A stretch of DNA of 64,000 bases from Methanohalophilus sp. RSK. GTDB taxonomy: Archaea > Halobacteriota > Methanosarcinia > Methanosarcinales > Methanosarcinaceae. Position numbers and translations under genes: made by a program. Positions 27,867-48,797 of this stretch are shown one piece after another. The DNA lies in assembly GCF_003722075.1 (NCBI RefSeq), contig NZ_RDSK01000001.1:1-64000 (forward strand), given 5' to 3'. Every line of letters starts with the position of its first letter. The first letter of the stretch is position 1. The notes under the pieces are model-generated. The model did no database searches, had not been told where the DNA came from, and saw only the letters and a list, made by a program, of their open reading frames with translations.

Positions 27867-29845
27867 AAATGGAGCATGGGGATAATAATGGACATTCGCA
27901 TCATGCAATGATGCTGGAAGATTTCAGGAAACGCTTTTTCGTATCTGTAGTTCTTACATTACCGGTTTTATTCCTGTCACCGATCATCAGACAGGCATTG
28001 GAAAGTGCAGGAGTGAGCCTGCCGACAATTGAAGGTACCTCTTATCTGCTTTTTGCCTTTTCCACACTGATCTTCTTCTACGGTGGCAAGCCCTTCCTTA
28101 CCGGTCTGCTGGATGAACTCAGATCCCGCCAGCCCGGCATGATGACATTGATTGCCGTTGCCATCAGTGTGGCCTATATTTACAGCAGCCTTGTGGTTTT
28201 CGGTCTGGCAGGCAAATTCTTTTTCTGGGAACTGGCAACCCTTATCGACATCATGCTCCTGGGCCACTGGATCGAGATGAGATCTGTAATGGGAGCCTCC
28301 ATGGCTCTTGAGGAACTGGCAAAACTCATGCCCTCAAAAGCCCATCGTCTGGGAAAAAATGGTGAGGTAGAGGATGTAGCACTGAACGATTTACAGAATG
28401 GGGACAGGTTGCTGGTCAAACCGGGAGAAAAGCTTCCTGCTGATGGCAGGGTGGCAAAAGGGCAATCCTCGGTCAATGAAGCAATGTTATCCGGGGAAAC
28501 CACTCCGGTATCCAAAGAAAAAGACGATGAAGTAATTGGAGGTTCCATCAACGGGGAAGGGTCCCTGGAGATTATTATCGAAAAAACCGGTTCCGATTCA
28601 TTCCTCTCCCAGGTAATTGAACTTGTAAAACAGGCCCAGGAAAGTCGCTCCCGTGCACAGGACCTGGCCAACAGAGCCGCCCTGTGGCTGACTATCATAG
28701 CCTTAAGTGCAGGTGCTGTAACGCTTTTTGCCTGGGCTAATCTGGCAGGTTATGATTTTGCCTTTTCCCTGGAAAGAGCGGTTACAGTGATGGTAATCAC
28801 ATGTCCCCATGCCCTTGGCCTGGCAATTCCCCTTGTGATTGCAGTATCCTCTGCACTGGCCGCCAACAACGGACTGCTGATCAAGGACAGGGCTGCCTTT
28901 GAAAAAGCCCATGAGGTCGATGCGGTGGTTTTTGACAAGACCGGGACCCTGACTGAAGGAAAATTCGGGGTCACCGACATAATTCCCTTTGAGAATGTAT
29001 CAGAAGAGGAAATCCTGAAACTGGCTGCTTCAGTAGAAGCTGAATCGGAACATTCCATAGCCCGGGGTATTGTGGAATCAGCAGAGGAAAAATATCCTAT
29101 TGAGGATTTCAACAGTATCCCCGGCAAGGGAGCGTACGCAACAGTTGAGGACAGGCAGATCACAGTTGCAAGTGGCTCCTATATAGCTGACCAGGGGTTC
29201 GAACCTGACGCAGCTGAAACAGAGGGGTTAACATCTCAGGGTAAGACTGTTGTTTTCGTGGTTGAGGAGGATAAATTGATAGGTGCTATAGCCCTTGCAG
29301 ATATTATACGTCCTGAATCAAAACAGGCAATAGCTGCCCTGAAAGAGAGAGGTATACGCTGCATGATGCTTACCGGGGATAATGAAAATGTAGCTGGCTG
29401 GGTATCGGAAAGTATAGGCCTTGACGAGTATTTTGCTGAAGTGCTTCCACAGGAAAAAGAGGGGAAGATTAGGGATATCCAGGACCGTGGACTGCGTGTG
29501 GCAATGACAGGTGATGGTGTGAATGATGCACCTGCCCTGGCCCGTGCAGACCTGGGCGTGGCCATAGGGGCTGGAACGGATGTGGCTGTGGAGACGGCGG
29601 ATATTGTGCTGGTACGCAGCAATCCTCTGGATATAATAACTGTTCTGGATCTCTCAGCAAAAACCTACGGGAAAATGAAGCAGAACCTGTTCTGGGCCAC
29701 AGGTTACAATGCCATTGCCATCCCACTTGCAGCAGGGGTGCTGGCGGGATAGGGAATCCTGCTGTCTCCGGCTGTGGGAGCGGTGCTTATGTCGCTGAGT
29801 ACGGTTATTGTTGCTGTAAATGCAAAGTTGTTATCCCTTGATTGA
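27863..29845 (+). CDS. copB: Copper-exporting P1B ATPase (CopB type) with in-frame UAG
   Basis: A P1B ATPase with a short His-rich N terminus (HGDNNGHSHH), SGET in the actuator domain, the CPH metal motif in M6 (CPHALGLAIP), DKTGTLT and GDGVNDAP. CPH with a His-rich tail marks CopB-type Cu/Ag pumps. The frame meets TAG at 29750-29752 (codon 630). After it the same frame continues for 30 codons, GILLSPAVGAVLMS and so on, to TGA at 29843. Those residues are the conserved last helix of the family, so the true protein needs UAG to be read, most likely as pyrrolysine, giving 660 residues. If UAG were a stop the pump would lose its final membrane helix. A recent nonsense mutation is the alternative. 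Confidence 0.85.
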
Positions 29846-29885
29846 ACTCCAATAGATAGCGGAAATTGACTAAAATATTATGACC

Positions 29886-29909
29886 AAATGAAACTACAAG
29901 ATTTCATTT
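29886..29909. terminator. Bidirectional terminator between convergent genes
   Basis: The perfect 8-bp stem AAATGAAA/TTTCATTT with loop CTACAAGA lies between the copper ATPase gene and the interrupted beta-helix gene. On the + strand it is followed by TTCTATATTTTTTCTT. It overlaps the stop codon of the gene on the other strand. Confidence 0.6.
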
Positions 29910-30947
29910 TCTATATTTTTTCTTAACTATGAATACTACCAAAATCACAAGAAATACTATCGTAAACCCAGGAAAAGGTATAGTTGAAACTTCTTTGTCG
30001 TTGACCTGATTCCGGTAAATATGATTTTCAGCATATTCTGCCTCATTTATGCCTTTACTATTATTCAATAATAAATTTTCTTTTACTGTATTATTGATAG
30101 AATCTTCAAATAATAATCCATTTTGGGTATTAGAAGATATATTATTATTCCCGATTATATTATTAGTAGAAGATATAAAATATATCCCATTTCGATTGTT
30201 AAAGCTTATGTGATTAAAGAATATTTCATTACTAGCAGATGATTCAAAAAGCATACCGTTCCATTCACTAAATTGAATAGTATTATTTTCAAGGATGTTA
30301 TTATTCGAACGCTCTACGAAAATTCCATCAAAACCACTTGCAATAATACTATTTTCTTCAATCATATTCCCGACAGACAAAACAACGCCTATACCATTAT
30401 GATTGTTTAACAAAATATTGTTGCTTATTGTACAATTATTTACTTCATCTAGATAAATTCCAGCCTTTTCAGGACCTTCAACTCCACTTATTGTAAAACC
30501 TTTCACGGTAACATTATCTGAAGTAATGAGACTGTCGGAAAAGTGGTGAAATCGAAACATTTCAAGCAATGACTGAAAGTAAAACGCTATGCTGTGTTGC
30601 ACTGTATTTAATGGATATGTTATAATTTTCTTGAATATGGGCTTTTCCGACAATCTCAAGTAATATTAAAAACATTATTTATTGGATCTTCAGCTCTAAC
30701 AATACAATCATCAGCATTTTCAGAAAACGACGTTACGGTCAATTCTTTATTGATATTGATATTTTCCACATAAGTTCCATTGTAAACTAATATCGTGTCA
30801 CCAACATTTGCCTTTTTTACAGCATTCTCTATTTTCAGGTAATCACTGTCCCCACCATCATTTACACTTATTACTTTTGCAGATGTTAATCCTGAAAATA
30901 TTATGACGAAAATCAACGCAAAAGTTAATACCCCCAATACTTTTCAT
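29904..30947 (-). pseudogene. NosD-like beta-helix surface protein, broken by a MITE and a frameshift
   Basis: The gene encodes a secreted parallel beta-helix protein: an N-terminal signal (ending SGLTSA), a NosD-like start (GGDSDYLKIENAVKKANVGDTI), then many right-handed helix turns with NNI/NNN ladders, and a C-terminal PGF motif, helix and Lys/Arg tail. It is split at 30657/30528 by a 130-bp insertion. Removing the insertion and one 7-bp target copy joins VFNIT to SDNVTVKGF in frame. In addition the well-placed ATG at 30947 (GGAGG six bases upstream) is out of frame by one base with the signal peptide, which is open only from TTG 30937. So the gene carries two lesions and is probably dead. 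Confidence 0.88.
30528..30657. mobile_element. 130-bp MITE with 16-bp inverted repeats and 7-bp target duplication
   Basis: The element begins GAGACTGTCGGAAAAG and ends CTTTTCCGACAATCTC, inverted repeats with one mismatch. It is flanked on both sides by AAGTAAT (30521-30527 and 30658-30664). It has no coding capacity, so it needed a transposase from elsewhere. Excision in silico restores the host reading frame exactly, which confirms both boundaries. Confidence 0.92.
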
Positions 30948-31012
30948 CACTTTCCTCCCTCTTTTATAAGCGATTTTAAATCTAAATTTATGATATACAC
31001 CAGCTTACTGTC

Positions 31013-33484
31013 TTAAACTCTCTTCCACAGATTCAATCCACTCTCGTCCAATAATTTATAAAACTGAATTTTCAAAAAATCAGTAATTACAAAAGCCATT
31101 ATGGAATAAACCCATACAAAAGAGGCCAGTCCCCAACCTATGGGAGTAATGTATATTCCATATACCACAATTAAAGTCGCTATTAATTTTGTGATTATCG
31201 TTGACCAGAATAAGATGCCACTAGGTCTTATGGACCAGAAAGGTCCTTTTGTACGAGCCAAAAAAATTGTCAAGTGTCCTGCAACTGCAAGTTTAAGGAA
31301 TATGAAAGATTGAATTGCACCTTGGCCCAAATTTAATACATGTTCGCCAATATAAAAAATAAGAAAAGAAGATATAACTCCTATTATACCCAGAAAAGTA
31401 GCCATACTCAAAATTTCCCTCATATTCCATTTATCAGGCAGGTTGGAATATCTGACATTATCATAAGCAATCGCCATTATCGGAGCATCATTAAATAAAG
31501 CGAGCAGAACTATCATAAGAGCAGTTACCGGATAGAAATTAAAAATTAAGATAGATAGCGTAATGAAAAACAGGACTCGTACTGTTTCAGCAATCCGATA
31601 AATGGAATAACTTTTCATACGTTGAAATATCATACGGCTTTCTTTGATAGCATCAACAATCACTGAAAGACCGGCTTTGGTAAATACGATATCTGCTGCG
31701 GATTTTGCTGCATCTGTAGCGCCTGCAACTGCAATACCTACATCAGCTTTTTTCAAAGCAGGCGCATCATTTACACCATCACCTGTCATTCCCATGATGT
31801 GTCCTCTTTTTTGCAAAACTTCAACAATATGATATTTGTGTTCTGGAAATACCTGGGCAAATCCATCAGCTTTTTCAATACATTTCCCAGCTTTCTCATC
31901 GGATTTGTCAAAAATAGAAGATTCAGTAACAATATTTGTGTTTAGCTTAACTTGTTTTGCAATTTGTTTGGCGATAGCAAGATGGTCCCCAGTAACCATT
32001 TTGATGTCAACACCCATGGATTGTGCATTCATTATCGTTTCAGCTGAATCATCATATGGTGGATCGTACAAAGCAATTATACCCAATACGTCCCATTTTC
32101 CCTCCATATCACCTTTTGCCACCCCAAGTGCACGATAGCCTTTTGAAGCAAAAGTGTCCACAGTTTCTTGAACTTGCTCTATCATCTGTTTATCAGTATC
32201 TGCCATTTTCAATATAACCTGAGGTGCCCCTTTTGCAAACCTGAATTTTTCACCTTGATCACTTTCAACTGTAACTTCGCTGCGCTTTATAACAGGATCA
32301 AAAGGCTTGAAATCCATTACCTGATATTTTTCAGATTTATCTGTAATGTCTCTTATAGTATTGATCTTGGAGATTATTGCATTATCAATAGGGTCACGGT
32401 CTTCCTCTCTTGATGCAAGTAATCCTGCCAGGTATACATCTGTACTATCAAATCCATCAAAAGATACCACATCTGCCAAAGCGAGCTTATTCTGGGTAAT
32501 AGTACCGGTCTTATCGGAGCAGAGTACATCCATTCCAGCCATTTCTTCTATGGAGGTAAGCTTACTGACAATAGCTTCCTTTTTAGCAAGATTCATGGCT
32601 CCTACTGCCATTGAAACAGATAGAACTGCCGGCAATGCTGCAGGAATAGCCGCAACCGTAAGCACAAGAGCAAATTGTAAAGTATCTAATAGGCTTTCGT
32701 GGCGAAACAGTGCCGCAAGAAAAATAATTACCACCAGAAGCGATGCAAGGACAATGAGATAATCCCCGATCTTAATTATAGCTTTTTGGAAATGACTTTG
32801 AGTTTTGGCTTCTGCTATCAGCTTGGTAGTTTTTCCAAAATATGTATTCATGCCTGTAGAAATCACAAGTGCATCCATTTCACCCTGTTGAACAACAGAA
32901 CCGGAATAAGCAATATCTGAAACATGTTTTTCCACAGGAAGGGATTCACCTGTTAATGCAGATTCATCGATTTCTAAATATTCTCCATCTATTAGTTTAG
33001 CATCCGCTGGGACAATATCTCCTAAACGCACCCTTACAATATCTCCAGGAACGAGCTCACGTGAAGGGATTTCAGACCATTTACCATCGCGTTTCACTTT
33101 GGCATTCAAAGCCATTTTTTTCTTTAATAGCTCAATAGCATTGTCGGCTTTATTCTCTTGCCAGAACCCTACAACTGCATTTAATAACAAAAGAATAGAA
33201 ATTATTATGAAATCTTCCCATTTTTGTATTATCAATGATAGAATAATAGCTACTTCAATCATCCACGGAATGGGACCCCAAAAATATCCAAAAATTTTTT
33301 TTAATGGACTTGCTTTTTTCTCTATAATCTCGTTATATCCGTATTTTTGAATTCTTTTTTGGGATTCCGAGACAGATAGTCCATTATTAGAAGAAGAAAG
33401 TCGCTTAAACATCTCGTCTACTGAAGTGACAGCTATGTCTTCCTGTTTAACACCTTCAGAAGTCTTCATACTATCATTATCCAA
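31013..33484 (-). CDS. Plasma-membrane-type proton-pumping P-type ATPase
   Basis: An 823-residue P3A ATPase related to fungal and plant H+-ATPases and their archaeal homologues. It shows the cation ATPase N domain, TGES, DKTGTIT at about residue 325, GDGVNDAP, and PAALP in M4, with a fully hydrophobic C-terminal half and no regulatory tail. It expels protons and sets membrane potential or pH. The start is unclear: TTG at 33484 and ATG at 33469 both fit, and neither has a good ribosome binding site. The base composition is more AT-rich than most neighbours, and the flanks hold a MITE-disrupted gene and a permease pseudogene, so this segment may be acquired. Confidence 0.9.
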   Translation of the reverse strand: MDNDSMKTSEGVKQEDIAVTSVDEMFKRLSSSNNGLSVSESQKRIQKYGYNEIIEKKASPLKKIFGYFWGPIPWMIEVAIILSLIIQKWEDFIIISILLLLNAVVGFWQENKADNAIELLKKKMALNAKVKRDGKWSEIPSRELVPGDIVRVRLGDIVPADAKLIDGEYLEIDESALTGESLPVEKHVSDIAYSGSVVQQGEMDALVISTGMNTYFGKTTKLIAEAKTQSHFQKAIIKIGDYLIVLASLLVVIIFLAALFRHESLLDTLQFALVLTVAAIPAALPAVLSVSMAVGAMNLAKKEAIVSKLTSIEEMAGMDVLCSDKTGTITQNKLALADVVSFDGFDSTDVYLAGLLASREEDRDPIDNAIISKINTIRDITDKSEKYQVMDFKPFDPVIKRSEVTVESDQGEKFRFAKGAPQVILKMADTDKQMIEQVQETVDTFASKGYRALGVAKGDMEGKWDVLGIIALYDPPYDDSAETIMNAQSMGVDIKMVTGDHLAIAKQIAKQVKLNTNIVTESSIFDKSDEKAGKCIEKADGFAQVFPEHKYHIVEVLQKRGHIMGMTGDGVNDAPALKKADVGIAVAGATDAAKSAADIVFTKAGLSVIVDAIKESRMIFQRMKSYSIYRIAETVRVLFFITLSILIFNFYPVTALMIVLLALFNDAPIMAIAYDNVRYSNLPDKWNMREILSMATFLGIIGVISSFLIFYIGEHVLNLGQGAIQSFIFLKLAVAGHLTIFLARTKGPFWSIRPSGILFWSTIITKLIATLIVVYGIYITPIGWGLASFVWVYSIMAFVITDFLKIQFYKLLDESGLNLWKRV

Positions 33485-33754
33485 AATTATCCAAACCCCT
33501 TAACTAGAAAGATTGTCTAGTAAGTCAATTTCCCCACAATAAGAGTAGAACAAGTTTTGTATATATCCTTTTGGATTCTATGATTCTAGCAATTTATATA
33601 TTTATAAATATATCATATTTTATTGTAATGAAGTATTGTTTGTGAACACAGAAACTGCAGATAAATATTCAATACACTTCTTCGAACCACCTGCTGACAT
33701 AAGATTACACTTCCAATCTAAAACAGTAGTAAATTATTAAGGATGATTTTTTAG

Positions 33755-34597
33755 TCAATTTCGTATCTTTATCGATCTATTGCAATATTTCCTATATATA
33801 GCTTCTGTAATAAAACAAGATACCAGAATAAGAGTTGCTGCAGATTTATTCAACTGGTAATATACAAGGATACAAAAAAATACTATACTACTTACAAGGG
33901 AAGCCCAAATCAAATAAGGTTTGGCTCCAGTTTCTTTATATAAATGTAAGTGACCATAATTTACAGCTATATATATTATTAATAAAGAAGCACTTGCTAT
34001 CATCCCGATACCCGCAAGATTCAAGAAATTAGTGCATAATCTTTAGCTTGGGATATTTCCGGAAGGGAAAGATTGCCTACAACTGCCAGACTTACAAGTA
34101 CATAAATGAATATGACTATCAATACACTCAAATAAAGGGCTCTTGGAAGGGTTTTTTGAGGATTGTCCATATCTTCAGCTGCATTAGTAATCAGACCAAA
34201 ACCTTGGTAAGCAAGGAATAACATGCCTGCGCCAAAAAGGATATGTGACGTACCAGAAAAAGTTGATAATGACAAATTTGAAGGTTCAATAAAAAAACAT
34301 TCCTGATAGGGCAAAAAGCAAGAGAATACCTACTTTTATTGATACAATAAAAACTTCAGATTTACCTACAGCTTTTGCACCTATGAAATTTATTAAAGTA
34401 AAAACAAGTATTATTGATGTAGAAAAGACATTGGACCAAATCTGAGCTGACCCGGAAGGAAGAAAAGTCATAGCATAGTAGGATAATCCTTTAGCATATA
34501 AAGCAAGCCCAAATATATAACCTACCCACAGAAGGACATTAAGCCCTCCGCCTAGAACCCCGTCACCAAGTCCTCTTACCAGAATTACTTTGCTAAA
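33755..34597 (-). pseudogene. Degenerate APC-family amino acid permease
   Basis: Three overlapping frames on the minus strand together read as the middle of an amino acid permease: GLGDGVLGGGLNVLLWVGYI, then TLINFIGAKAVG, then FLAYQGFGLITNAAEDMDNP with the conserved helix 6 motif, then NLAGIGMIASASL. The first frame change falls in a T7 run at about 34297, the second at about 34022 with some loss of sequence. The N-terminal helices are missing. It cannot make a working transporter. The 270 bases between this and the H+-ATPase gene show nothing else. Confidence 0.88.
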
Positions 34598-34720
34598 TCA
34601 TCCTCAGTGATTTAAATAATTATTTACATGTAGATTCTTCTTAGGCATCTATTTTGTATTTAAACAGAGTTAATCATTATATAGTTTAATATGAAATAAA
34701 AATAGCAAATAGTTATTAAC

Positions 34721-34730
34721 TTATATAAAA
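34721..34730 (+). promoter_or_regulatory. TATA box of ftr
   Basis: TTATATAAAA lies about 100 bases upstream of the ftr start, leaving room for a leader of some 70 bases. It is the best archaeal TATA box in this gap; the start site itself is inferred. Confidence 0.45.
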
Positions 34731-34823
34731 TACTTTAAACCTCACGATATCTACAACGTCGAAGATTATTTGTACTGCAAACAGTATCTCCTTTGTACCC
34801 TTAATTAAAGAGCAGGTGTCATT

Positions 34824-35717
34824 ATGGAAATTAACGGAGTAGAAATCGAAGATACTTTTGCAGAAGCATTCCCGATAAAGATCGGAAGAGTACTGATCAC
34901 AGCCGTGAACGAAAAATGGGCAAGGGTAGCTGCACAGGAAGCTACAGGTTTTGGTACTTCTGTCATCATGTGTCCCGCAGAAGGCGGTATCGAAAGGGTT
35001 GCCAGTCCTGATGAAACCCCTGATGGAAGACCTGGTGTTTACATCCAGCTCTGCACCTTCGGCTACAAATCCCTGGAAGAACAGCTCCTGGAAAGACTGG
35101 GCCAGTGTGTACTGACCGCTCCCACAACAGCAATGTACAACGGTCTCCCGGATGCTGAAAAACAGTTTGACACTGGTTTCAAGCTCAAATTCTTCGCAGA
35201 CGGTACAGAATCCGAAACCGAAGTCGGTGGCAGGAAAGCCTACAAGATCCCAATGATGGAAGGCGATTTTATTACCGAGCACTCCATGGGTGGAGTAAAA
35301 GGTGTAGCAGGCGGAAACTTCTTCATCTTCGGCGACTGCCAGATGAGTGGCCTCAATGCCGCAGAGGCAGCAGTTGAAGCCATAGAAAAGGTCGAAGGCT
35401 CCATCACCCCATTCCCCGGTGGTATCGTGGCCAGTGGTTCCAAACCAGGTGCCAACAAGTACACTTTCCTCAAGGCAACCGCAAACGAAAAGTTCTGCCC
35501 CTCCATCAGGGACCAGATCGAGGATACCCAGATCCCCGAAGGTGTGGGAGCAGTTTACGAGATCGTTATCAACGGTGTCAGCGAGGAAGCAATTTCCAGC
35601 GCAATATCCGCCGGTATAAAGGCATCCGTAAAGGTTCCGGGTATCAAAAAGATCTCCGCAGGCAACTACGGCGGAAACCTTGGCCCCTACAAATTCAATC
35701 TCCATGACCTCGTATGA
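34824..35717 (+). CDS. ftr: Formylmethanofuran:tetrahydromethanopterin formyltransferase
   Basis: A 297-residue enzyme, the usual family length, catalysing transfer of the formyl group between methanofuran and H4MPT, a core step of methanogenesis that runs in the oxidative direction on methylated substrates. It starts MEINGVEIEDTFAEAFPIK and contains TAPTTAMYNGLP and FFIFGDCQMSGLNAAEAA, both characteristic. The protein is rich in acidic residues, as in salt-tolerant Ftr. AGGTG precedes the ATG. It is transcribed from its own TATA promoter; the PH-domain genes follow 36 bases after a T-rich tract and may or may not share its transcript. Confidence 0.97.
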   Translation: MEINGVEIEDTFAEAFPIKIGRVLITAVNEKWARVAAQEATGFGTSVIMCPAEGGIERVASPDETPDGRPGVYIQLCTFGYKSLEEQLLERLGQCVLTAPTTAMYNGLPDAEKQFDTGFKLKFFADGTESETEVGGRKAYKIPMMEGDFITEHSMGGVKGVAGGNFFIFGDCQMSGLNAAEAAVEAIEKVEGSITPFPGGIVASGSKPGANKYTFLKATANEKFCPSIRDQIEDTQIPEGVGAVYEIVINGVSEEAISSAISAGIKASVKVPGIKKISAGNYGGNLGPYKFNLHDLV

Positions 35718-40194: not shown

Positions 40195-40375
40195 TGAATG
40201 AGTACCTGACGAATAATACTTTCACACCGCTTGGTTTCAAAATATATATCCCTGGAGACCTATTAGGAAATAGTCACGGATTCGATGGGCACACGCCTTT
40301 ACAAGTTTCAAGGCTAGGTGCCATCGATCATCCCCTCAACCGTGATACAGGCACCCTTTTATTTTTTATTTTCAA
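40195..40375 (+). ncRNA. Candidate structured RNA with terminator-like end
   Basis: This gap between the site-2 protease and mfnA holds no gene but several hairpins on the + strand: CTATT/AATAG with loop AGGA, GCCTT/AAGGC (40295-40314), and GGTGCC/GGCACC (40317-40322, 40350-40355) with an inner ATCA/TGAT stem. The last stem is followed by CTTTTATTTTTTATTTT, like a terminator. An AT-rich promoter-like stretch lies at 40165-40190. No + strand gene ends here, so the terminator needs another explanation, such as a small RNA. No known RNA family was recognised. Confidence 0.3.
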
Positions 40376-41508
40376 GATTGGTTTACAACAGTATCCAGAT
40401 CCGCAAGAAACATATCTATAATCTCATTATCCAGATGGGGCATGATAACCAATCTTAGTGCCTGTGGATTTCTCGTAAGAGAAACACGCCATCCAAAATC
40501 CTCGTAAAGTCTGTTTTGAATATCAACTGGTGACTCTACATCCAGAGCCACGATATTCATAACAGGTTCTATCACCGGCCGGATTCCTATATTCCTGGCC
40601 CCTGCAACAAGCCTGTCAGTCATATCCATACACCGTTGTACAATGGTACCATAACCTTTCCTTCCAAGATGGCGCATGACTGCATAGGTAGATACTACAG
40701 CTGCTCCACTACGGGTACCTGTCAGGGAATACTGACTACTTATAGTAAGATAAGGTGTCTTTACTGCCAGATTGTCAAGATCAAGACTGTTGCGGAAAAG
40801 TAATCCTCCTGAAGGAATGGTGCTTAAACCCATTTTGTGAGGATCTATTGTAACAGAAGATACACCCGCAATTTCAAAATCAAATTTATATTTAGCTTTG
40901 AGGAAAGGCAGTACAAAACCCCCAAAAGCCGCATCTACGTGGAAAGGTAAACCCTTTTCGATAGCTATATCAGAAAGAGTTTCAAGAGGATCTACCTGCC
41001 CAAACTCGGTAGTGCCGGCTATACCCACCAATCCTACAGTATTGTTATCTATCAGGCAATTAACTGCATCCGTATCCACCTGCAAATTGTCAGAAAGAGT
41101 TGCTCTGCGTATATCTATACCTGAAAGATCACCAACTTTATCAAAGGAAAAATGAGCTGAATCAGGAACAACAATGTTGGGATTTACAATTGATCTATTA
41201 CGATTACGCATAGCTCTTACGGCCTGGATATTTGATTCAGTGCCTCCTGTACTGATATAACCACAGGCATCCGGAAGATGCAACATGGCACCCAGCATCT
41301 GCATGACCTGTTCTTCCAGTTCAAATGTCCCCTGAAAAAGACCTGGATCTCCCATATTAGCTTCGATGAAAGTACAATGGGCATACTATGCTATTTCATG
41401 AGGATAGGTACACATGGAACTCAAAACTTTCCTGTAATCACTATCCCTGTTTTTTTTTTGAGATAATTCCTTTAGAACTAAATCTCTTGTGATACCATTG
41501 CTATACAT
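40372..41508 (-). CDS. mfnA: Tyrosine/aspartate decarboxylase MfnA with in-frame UAG
   Basis: A PLP enzyme that decarboxylates tyrosine to tyramine for methanofuran (some homologues also make beta-alanine from aspartate). The PLP lysine lies in [10 protein letters not shown]. Without readthrough the frame opens only at GDPGLFQGT and lacks about 50 residues. Upstream in the same frame, from ATG 41508, the sequence reads [13 protein letters not shown], then TAG at 41388-41386 (codon 41), then [15 protein letters not shown]. This is exactly the conserved N-terminal segment of MfnA (SSMCT...P..IA...FIEAN.GDPGLF). With UAG read, probably as pyrrolysine, the protein has 378 residues, close to family length. 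Since methanofuran is required for methanogenesis a true nonsense mutation is unlikely unless a second copy exists. Confidence 0.88.
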
Positions 41509-47549: not shown

Positions 47550-48797
47550 ATGGCCGAACAATCTGCTCATGAAAAATATGAATTCAAGAAAAAACTTGAA
47601 TCCCTCCGAAATAAAAAGGGAAGGGGTACTGAACTCATATCCCTTTACATACCGCCTGACAAACAGCTGTCCGATGTAACTTCACAGCTTAAGACCGAAC
47701 ACAGTCAGGCTTCTAACATCAAATCCAAGGTCACCAAGACTAATGTACAGTCTGCGATTGATTCCCTGCTTTCCCGTCTTAAGTATCTCGAGATCCCGGA
47801 AAACGGTATAGTATATTTTACCGGAGCTGTGGATGTAGGTGCGGATAAAACCAATATGGAAACCACTATCATAAAGCCCCCACAACCTCTTACTATCTAC
47901 AAGTATCACTGCGACTCTGACTTTTTCCTCGAACCACTGGAAGGAATGCTCAAGGAGGCCAAGACCTACGGTTTGCTTGTGCTTGACAGAAGGGAAGCCA
48001 CAATTGGTTTACTTACAGGTAAACATATAGAATCCTACCGAAATCTTACCTCAACAGTGCCGGGTAAACAGAGAAAAGGTGGTCAGAGTGCTCAGCGTTT
48101 CCAGCAGCTGAGGCTTATAGCGATACATGATTTCTACAAGCGTATAGGAGACGCGGCCAGTGAAATTTTCATGACGGTTGATATGAAGGATTTCGAGGGA
48201 ATATTGCTGGGTGGGCCTTCCCCGACCAAGGAAGAGTTCCAATCAGGAGAATTCCTGCATCATGAGCTGCAAAAGAAAATACTGGGCCTCTTTGATGTGG
48301 CCTACACCGATGAGTCGGGTCTGCAGGAACTTGTCAATGCCGCAAGTGAGCGGTTGCAGGACCTGGACCTGATGGTGGAAAAGAATTTGATGCAAAAGTT
48401 TTTCAAGGAACTGGTATCCGATTCCGGAAAAGCTGCCTATGGTGAGGAAGTAGTGCGTCAGAACCTGATGATAGGGGCCGTGGAGACACTGCTGATATCC
48501 GAGGATCTGAGGTCTGAAAGAATAAAGATCAGGTGTACTACCGGGGATTATGAAGATAATATAACCCGGGAAAATCAACCGGACCAGGAAAGTGTAGATG
48601 ACTTTGGCAACTGTCCCAAATGCGGATCTTCCCTGGAAGTTGTTGAAAGAGTAGATATTGTGGATGAACTCTCGGAACTGAGCGATCAGATGGGAAGTGA
48701 GGTGGCTTTTATATCAACTGATTTTGAGGAAGGCGGCCAGCTTCTCAATGCTTTTGGTGGCATTGTTGCGATTTTGCGGTATAATACAGGTATGTAA
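47550..48797 (+). CDS. prf1: Peptide chain release factor aRF1
   Basis: The 415-residue class 1 release factor, reading all stop codons. Domain 1 has the codon-recognition motifs NIKSK (QASNIKSKVTK) and YxCxxxF (YHCDSDF). Domain 2 has GGQ in QRKGGQSAQRF for peptide release, and domain 3 ends with a zinc-ribbon-like CPKC segment. In a UAG-decoding archaeon this factor competes with tRNA-Pyl at UAG. All motifs look canonical, so UAG recognition is not obviously lost. GGAG precedes the ATG. The argS gene follows by nine bases. Confidence 0.95.
   Translation: MAEQSAHEKYEFKKKLESLRNKKGRGTELISLYIPPDKQLSDVTSQLKTEHSQASNIKSKVTKTNVQSAIDSLLSRLKYLEIPENGIVYFTGAVDVGADKTNMETTIIKPPQPLTIYKYHCDSDFFLEPLEGMLKEAKTYGLLVLDRREATIGLLTGKHIESYRNLTSTVPGKQRKGGQSAQRFQQLRLIAIHDFYKRIGDAASEIFMTVDMKDFEGILLGGPSPTKEEFQSGEFLHHELQKKILGLFDVAYTDESGLQELVNAASERLQDLDLMVEKNLMQKFFKELVSDSGKAAYGEEVVRQNLMIGAVETLLISEDLRSERIKIRCTTGDYEDNITRENQPDQESVDDFGNCPKCGSSLEVVERVDIVDELSELSDQMGSEVAFISTDFEEGGQLLNAFGGIVAILRYNTGM

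Follow-up and report, generated by a model that had tools for sequence, protein, structure and literature searches.

Pyrrolysine predicted at an in-frame UAG codon of the methanofuran biosynthesis gene mfnA in Methanohalophilus

Main finding

The mfnA gene of Methanohalophilus sp. RSK carries an in-frame TAG at codon 41, within what is otherwise a complete reading frame for the L-tyrosine decarboxylase of methanofuran synthesis. With considerable confidence, pyrrolysine can be taken as the general meaning of UAG in this organism, with codon 41 read by tRNA-Pyl to give full-length MfnA and the TAG gained once, probably without selection. We infer the inserted residue, the full length and the activity of the product, and the neutral origin of the codon from sequence data. 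The window, meaning the whole stretch of DNA analysed, comprises the first 64,000 nucleotides of contig NZ_RDSK01000001.1. The genome (1.97 Mb, 18 contigs, 99.6% complete) has Methanohalophilus euhalobius and M. profundi as its nearest named relatives.

In the proposed mechanism, PylS would charge tRNA-Pyl(CUA), which would decode mfnA codon 41, and the ribosome would continue past it to produce a single full-length PLP-dependent tyrosine decarboxylase of 378 residues, the product of which would supply tyramine to methanofuran. Pyrrolysine would be the regular meaning of UAG across the genes of this Methanohalophilus. The near-loss of TAG as a stop would have made the gain in mfnA possible, with TAG codons arising by drift wherever pyrrolysine is tolerated and mfnA gaining one early. 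The mfnA TAG would then go back to a single event in the common ancestor of Methanohalophilus sensu stricto, and selection for pyrrolysine probably played no part in it. Most likely, MfnA gained pyrrolysine incidentally, ahead of the divergence of the six species, and has since come to depend on it.

The mfnA reading frame

40372..41508, minus strand: mfnA, predicted L-tyrosine decarboxylase, 378 codons with the TAG read through (TIGR03812 and 3F9T matches)
41386..41388, minus strand: in-frame TAG, mfnA codon 41, predicted pyrrolysine (from translation; TAG in 6/6 Methanohalophilus sensu stricto)
41389..41508, minus strand: mfnA codons 1-40, conserved, before the TAG, with a near-invariant 11-residue motif (dN/dS 0.115)

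Translation of the 378-codon frame running from 41508 to 40372 meets only one in-frame stop, the TAG at 41388-41386, which is flanked by the 11-residue motif on its N-terminal side and by a 15-residue segment on its C-terminal side. In a profile search, the read-through product scores 520 bits against TIGR03812 (curated cut-off, 299.4 bits), the match covering residues 9-374 of 378. The PLP-binding lysine motif DPHKM is present as DPHKMG at residues 222-227 and is invariant or nearly so in the alignment. The original prediction of a complete MfnA with an in-frame TAG at codon 41 is thus borne out, and translation equally bears out its claim that the ten-A run keeps frame, no lesion other than the codon-41 TAG being found in this frame. 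A chance open frame was considered and rejected on the strength of the TIGR03812 score with the TAG read through. The genome holds no second mfnA that could take over the function and so refute read-through; the sole other match is a cysteine desulfurase of the NifS/IscS type.

The tyramine part of methanofuran is made by MfnA (PMC3087415, PMC11365854), and a further methanofuran gene lies in the window:

34824..35717, plus strand: ftr, formylmethanofuran:H4MPT formyltransferase (Pfam FTR and FTR_C)

The presence of ftr shows that the organism uses methanofuran. Across the family, 111 of 112 genomes gave a match to mfnA that reached the search threshold (weak or partial in a few poor assemblies); G069, a family member with a 99% complete genome, has neither an mfnA match nor a pylS match. 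Given the role in methanofuran synthesis, the ftr gene and this distribution, a need for MfnA is likely, so that the earlier expectation that MfnA is required for growth stands as likely rather than proven.

Codon 41 among relatives

Eight Methanohalophilus genomes were sampled, and six of them, the source included, form a sensu stricto group in which MfnA is 94-97% identical; the MfnA proteins of the other two, G033 and G037, are 60-62% identical. Codon 41 is TAG in all six sensu stricto genomes (the source, G031, G032, G034, G035 and G036) and a sense codon in the other relatives aligned. Recurrence in six independent assemblies disposes of a sequencing error at 41386-41388 as a possible refutation. 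The gene is complete in G031, G032, G034 and G035, and in G036 a T run located 3' of the TAG contains one additional base.

In G033 and G037, codon 41 specifies Ala (GCC and GCA, respectively). Among 65 non-TAG rows from the close relatives sampled, in which some genomes are counted twice, the residue is Val in 44, Ala in 18, Ile in two and Leu in one, and never basic or polar. The relatives' codons (GCA, GCC, GTT, GTA, CTA) are each more than one change from TAG, so none of them could have given the mfnA TAG by a one-step error. No genome outside Methanohalophilus sensu stricto was seen to carry the mfnA TAG, even though PylS occurs in 100 of the 112 family genomes. Because G033 and G037, with Ala, adjoin the TAG group in the tree (support 0.90), the simplest history suggested by these sequences would be a single gain of the TAG on the branch to Methanohalophilus sensu stricto.

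Selection and structure around codon 41

When pairwise comparisons among five species are pooled, dN/dS comes to 0.115 over codons 1-40, 0.128 over codons 42-80 and 0.110 over codons 42-378, at about 0.2 synonymous differences per site. The gene is as constrained before the TAG as after it, which argues for one protein rather than a leader, a restart or a pseudogene. Termination at UAG could in principle be followed by restart at Met52 (ATG 41355-41353), with codons 1-40 then serving as a leader, and an open reading frame of 327 amino acids does begin at 41355. This is nevertheless very unlikely, since the shortened MfnA would lose a near-invariant 10-residue segment, codons 1-40 are equally constrained, all relatives lacking the TAG have one long protein, and other genes with internal TAG codons (see below) would be left unexplained.

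It is even harder to credit that mfnA is a young pseudogene or that the TAG is an error. The citrate synthase gene does decay in Methanohalophilus, and the extra base in the T run of the G036 mfnA could be taken as a sign of decay here as well. However, the identical TAG occurs in six genomes with low dN/dS on either side of it, five of the six mfnA genes are without a further lesion, and there is no replacement copy.

The AlphaFold model of MfnA is closest to the solved structure of M. jannaschii MfnA, 3F9T (Foldseek/VIA match, Z 46.6, rmsd 2.1, 40% identity), and places residue 41 in the opening part of a helix spanning model residues 38-50. M. jannaschii MfnA has Arg at the equivalent position. 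This Arg, the location at the helix start and the small hydrophobic residues of close relatives together suggest that a Lys-like residue is probably tolerated at position 41. Pyrrolysine would not be an obviously mild change, however, because no basic or polar residue occupies the position in any of the sampled close relatives.

Pyrrolysine at position 41 might instead be kept for some specific property of MfnA, or to couple methanofuran synthesis to pyrrolysine supply. The TAG persists in 6/6 species although many single substitutions would yield a standard residue, and at an otherwise small hydrophobic position pyrrolysine is a marked change. Against this, TAG codons in other genes are gained and lost with no functional theme, the six species are close enough (synonymous differences of about 0.2 per site) for descent alone to explain retention, and M. 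jannaschii MfnA accepts Arg at this site. Retention for such a reason is accordingly regarded as quite improbable. The broader proposition, that pyrrolysine was selected at position 41 because it aids the enzyme or links methanofuran to pyrrolysine, and that pyrrolysine would be needed for growth without methylamines too, is also considered unlikely.

With respect to a signal in the message, no PYLIS-like RNA element was recognized 3' of the TAG, as the minimum-energy folds of the 100-base stretch that starts at the TAG are not alike across five species. Decoding of UAG as pyrrolysine is considered to need no cis element (PMC8211752). The tryptic peptide holding MfnA residue 41 is 71 residues long and would escape standard mass spectrometry runs.

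Pyrrolysine machinery and use of TAG as a stop

The genome contains pylT (tRNA-Pyl, anticodon CTA), pylS, pylB, pylC and pylD in one cluster, with pylC and pylD named by position and sequence rather than by profile search. An absence of pyl genes, which could have overturned the original prediction, is thereby excluded. Beside tRNA-Pyl, no further CTA tRNA was found in the 461 kb of the genome that were sampled. The release factor gene lies in the window:

47550..48797, plus strand: aRF1, sole class-1 release factor of the genome (TIGR03676, 600 bits; eRF1 domains 1-3)

TIGR03676 gives one match over its cut-off per genome.

UAG might conceivably be read by a near-cognate tRNA for Gln, Tyr or Trp in place of tRNA-Pyl, and the replacement of CAG by species-specific TAG in two other genes would fit such a tRNA. 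It is highly improbable all the same: a dedicated CUA tRNA and its synthetase are present, the 461-kb sample holds no other CTA tRNA, and pyrrolysine at UAG has been proven for MttB in Methanohalophilus (PMC4928046). Decoding by tRNA-Pyl remains the preferred reading. The original claim that UAG in mfnA is read through, presumably as pyrrolysine, is well supported by the complete pyl set, the lack of a second mfnA and the TAG in six assemblies.

Stop codon usage was measured on the ends of long ORFs in the 461-kb sample, which makes up 23% of the genome. TGA ends 185 of these ORFs and TAA 156, leaving nine of 350 (2.6%) with TAG; other Methanohalophilus samples gave 0/103 (G035) and 4/165. In G107, a family member of equal GC content that lacks PylS, TAG ends 13 of 62 long ORFs (21%), against 13/618 in the pooled Methanohalophilus samples (Fisher p=3.6e-8). 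TAG ends two of 33 long ORFs in the PylS-less G069, a small sample.

Several of the nine TAG ends are in fact internal codons, falling in CopB, a TIGR01177 tRNA methyltransferase, a glycosyltransferase and MttB. The genes that appear to be TAG-ended are pylB, uppS, an archaetidylinositol phosphate synthase gene, a TnpB gene and one other; in pylB, uppS and a few others, the next stop follows the TAG after 2-39 in-frame codons. Because a few genes appear to end in TAG and the one aRF1 is an ordinary one, UAG probably still terminates translation in some cases, and read-through might be incomplete. As a side observation, in pylB (L084:7786-8964, minus strand) the terminal TAG is followed by 39 more in-frame codons that overlap the start of pylC; a pyrrolysine-dependent extension or feedback is possible.

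Other genes with internal TAG codons

27863..29845, plus strand: CopB, copper-type P-type ATPase, TAG at codon 630 (29750-29752, the second internal TAG of the window; TIGR01511, 620 bits)
L079:7885-8940, minus strand: TIGR01177-type tRNA methyltransferase, TAG at codon 254 (CAG/CAA, Gln, in all relatives)
L092:12302-12871, plus strand: comE, sulfopyruvate decarboxylase beta, coenzyme M synthesis, TAG at codon 125
L096:4419-5090, minus strand, and G000:C9:124422-125090: TPR protein, TAG at codons 106 and 109 (YS-O-LK-O-PEKA)

In these conserved genes and two others, internal TAG codons lie within family matches: in CopB, the tRNA methyltransferase, the glycosyltransferase (codon 332), MttB (codon 334), ComE and the TPR protein. 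Three internal-TAG genes (mfnA, comE and the TPR protein gene) are outside the nine TAG ends counted above. In CopB, the TIGR01511 match (75-657) spans the TAG, and codon 630 is CAG (Gln) in five relatives; the comE TAG occurs in the source genome only, where relatives have TTG or TTA (Leu). The TAG codons of CopB, the tRNA methyltransferase and ComE are thus each confined to one species, recent, and one or two steps from a Gln or Leu codon, which is the pattern expected of an ordinary sense codon acquired by drift. The TPR protein, a candidate double-pyrrolysine protein, keeps its TAG pair in 6/6 sensu stricto genomes, and the G037 ortholog has TAG codons at two other sites.

It had been proposed that pyrrolysine in MfnA would tie cofactor supply to pyrrolysine status. 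A special tie of this kind is not borne out, because MfnA is only one of several unrelated genes with an internal TAG, some of them species-specific. A dependence of MfnA on pyrrolysine would be real but common to other proteins.

Two further genes of the genus may be mentioned. A TPP-enzyme-like gene of G036 (L117:18016-18690, minus strand) has a species-specific TAG at a codon that is Gln in G031. An intact citrate synthase gene is present in G033 and G035; that of G034 carries a single TAG, only fragments are left in G000, G031, G032 and G036, and in G037 the gene was not found.

Relation to known pyrrolysine proteins

The methylamine methyltransferases MttB, MtbB and MtmB resemble MfnA in having an in-frame UAG read as pyrrolysine with the same pyl genes. 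Their pyrrolysine is catalytic and family-wide, whereas MfnA is a PLP enzyme with other members lacking the residue. Pyrrolysine was demonstrated by mass spectrometry at position 334 of M. portucalensis MttB (PMC4928046), the same position as the MttB TAG of the source genome.

Pyrrolysine in a non-methyltransferase has precedent in Thg1 (PMC2933860) and in the proposed case of M. mahii citrate synthase (PMC3017947). In Thg1 of Methanosarcina acetivorans, pyrrolysine arose by neutral evolution and is dispensable for activity (PMC2933860). Like MfnA, Thg1 is an enzyme outside methylamine methyltransfer, with a position that is not conserved as pyrrolysine in other lineages; its TAG is found in one species, however, and that of mfnA is common to six. 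For the amber codon of M. mahii citrate synthase, pyrrolysine was proposed by the authors (PMC3017947). This is likewise a central-metabolism enzyme of the same genus, but its gene decays in several sister species and mfnA does not. M. jannaschii MfnA (PDB 3F9T, 6JY1) shares family and fold with the protein described here and differs in having Arg, and no UAG, at the codon-41 position.

MfnA is unmentioned in the examined literature on Methanohalophilus and on pyrrolysine gene prediction, and the library of papers searched gave no published list of pyrrolysine proteins naming it. Kivenson et al. 2025 reportedly describe an archaeal "Pyl code", with TAG used genome-wide as a sense codon. The source genome resembles that code in its rare TAG stops, its full pyl set and the presence of TAG inside many unrelated genes.

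The pylT gene of M. acetivorans can be deleted with the loss of methylamine use alone (PMC2933860). If pyrrolysine is present in MfnA, ComE and other housekeeping proteins of Methanohalophilus, tRNA-Pyl should be required on any substrate, including methanol, and the genus would mark a shift of pyrrolysine from an optional to an obligatory amino acid. On that reading, automatic annotation has likely broken or dropped several real Methanohalophilus genes.

A segment of the window not aligned in sampled stretches of close relatives

A segment of about 4.9 kb (29846-34753), encoding a P-type cation ATPase and a NosD/beta-helix protein, could be aligned to none of the syntenic stretches sampled from five close relatives, in which its two flanks are almost adjacent.
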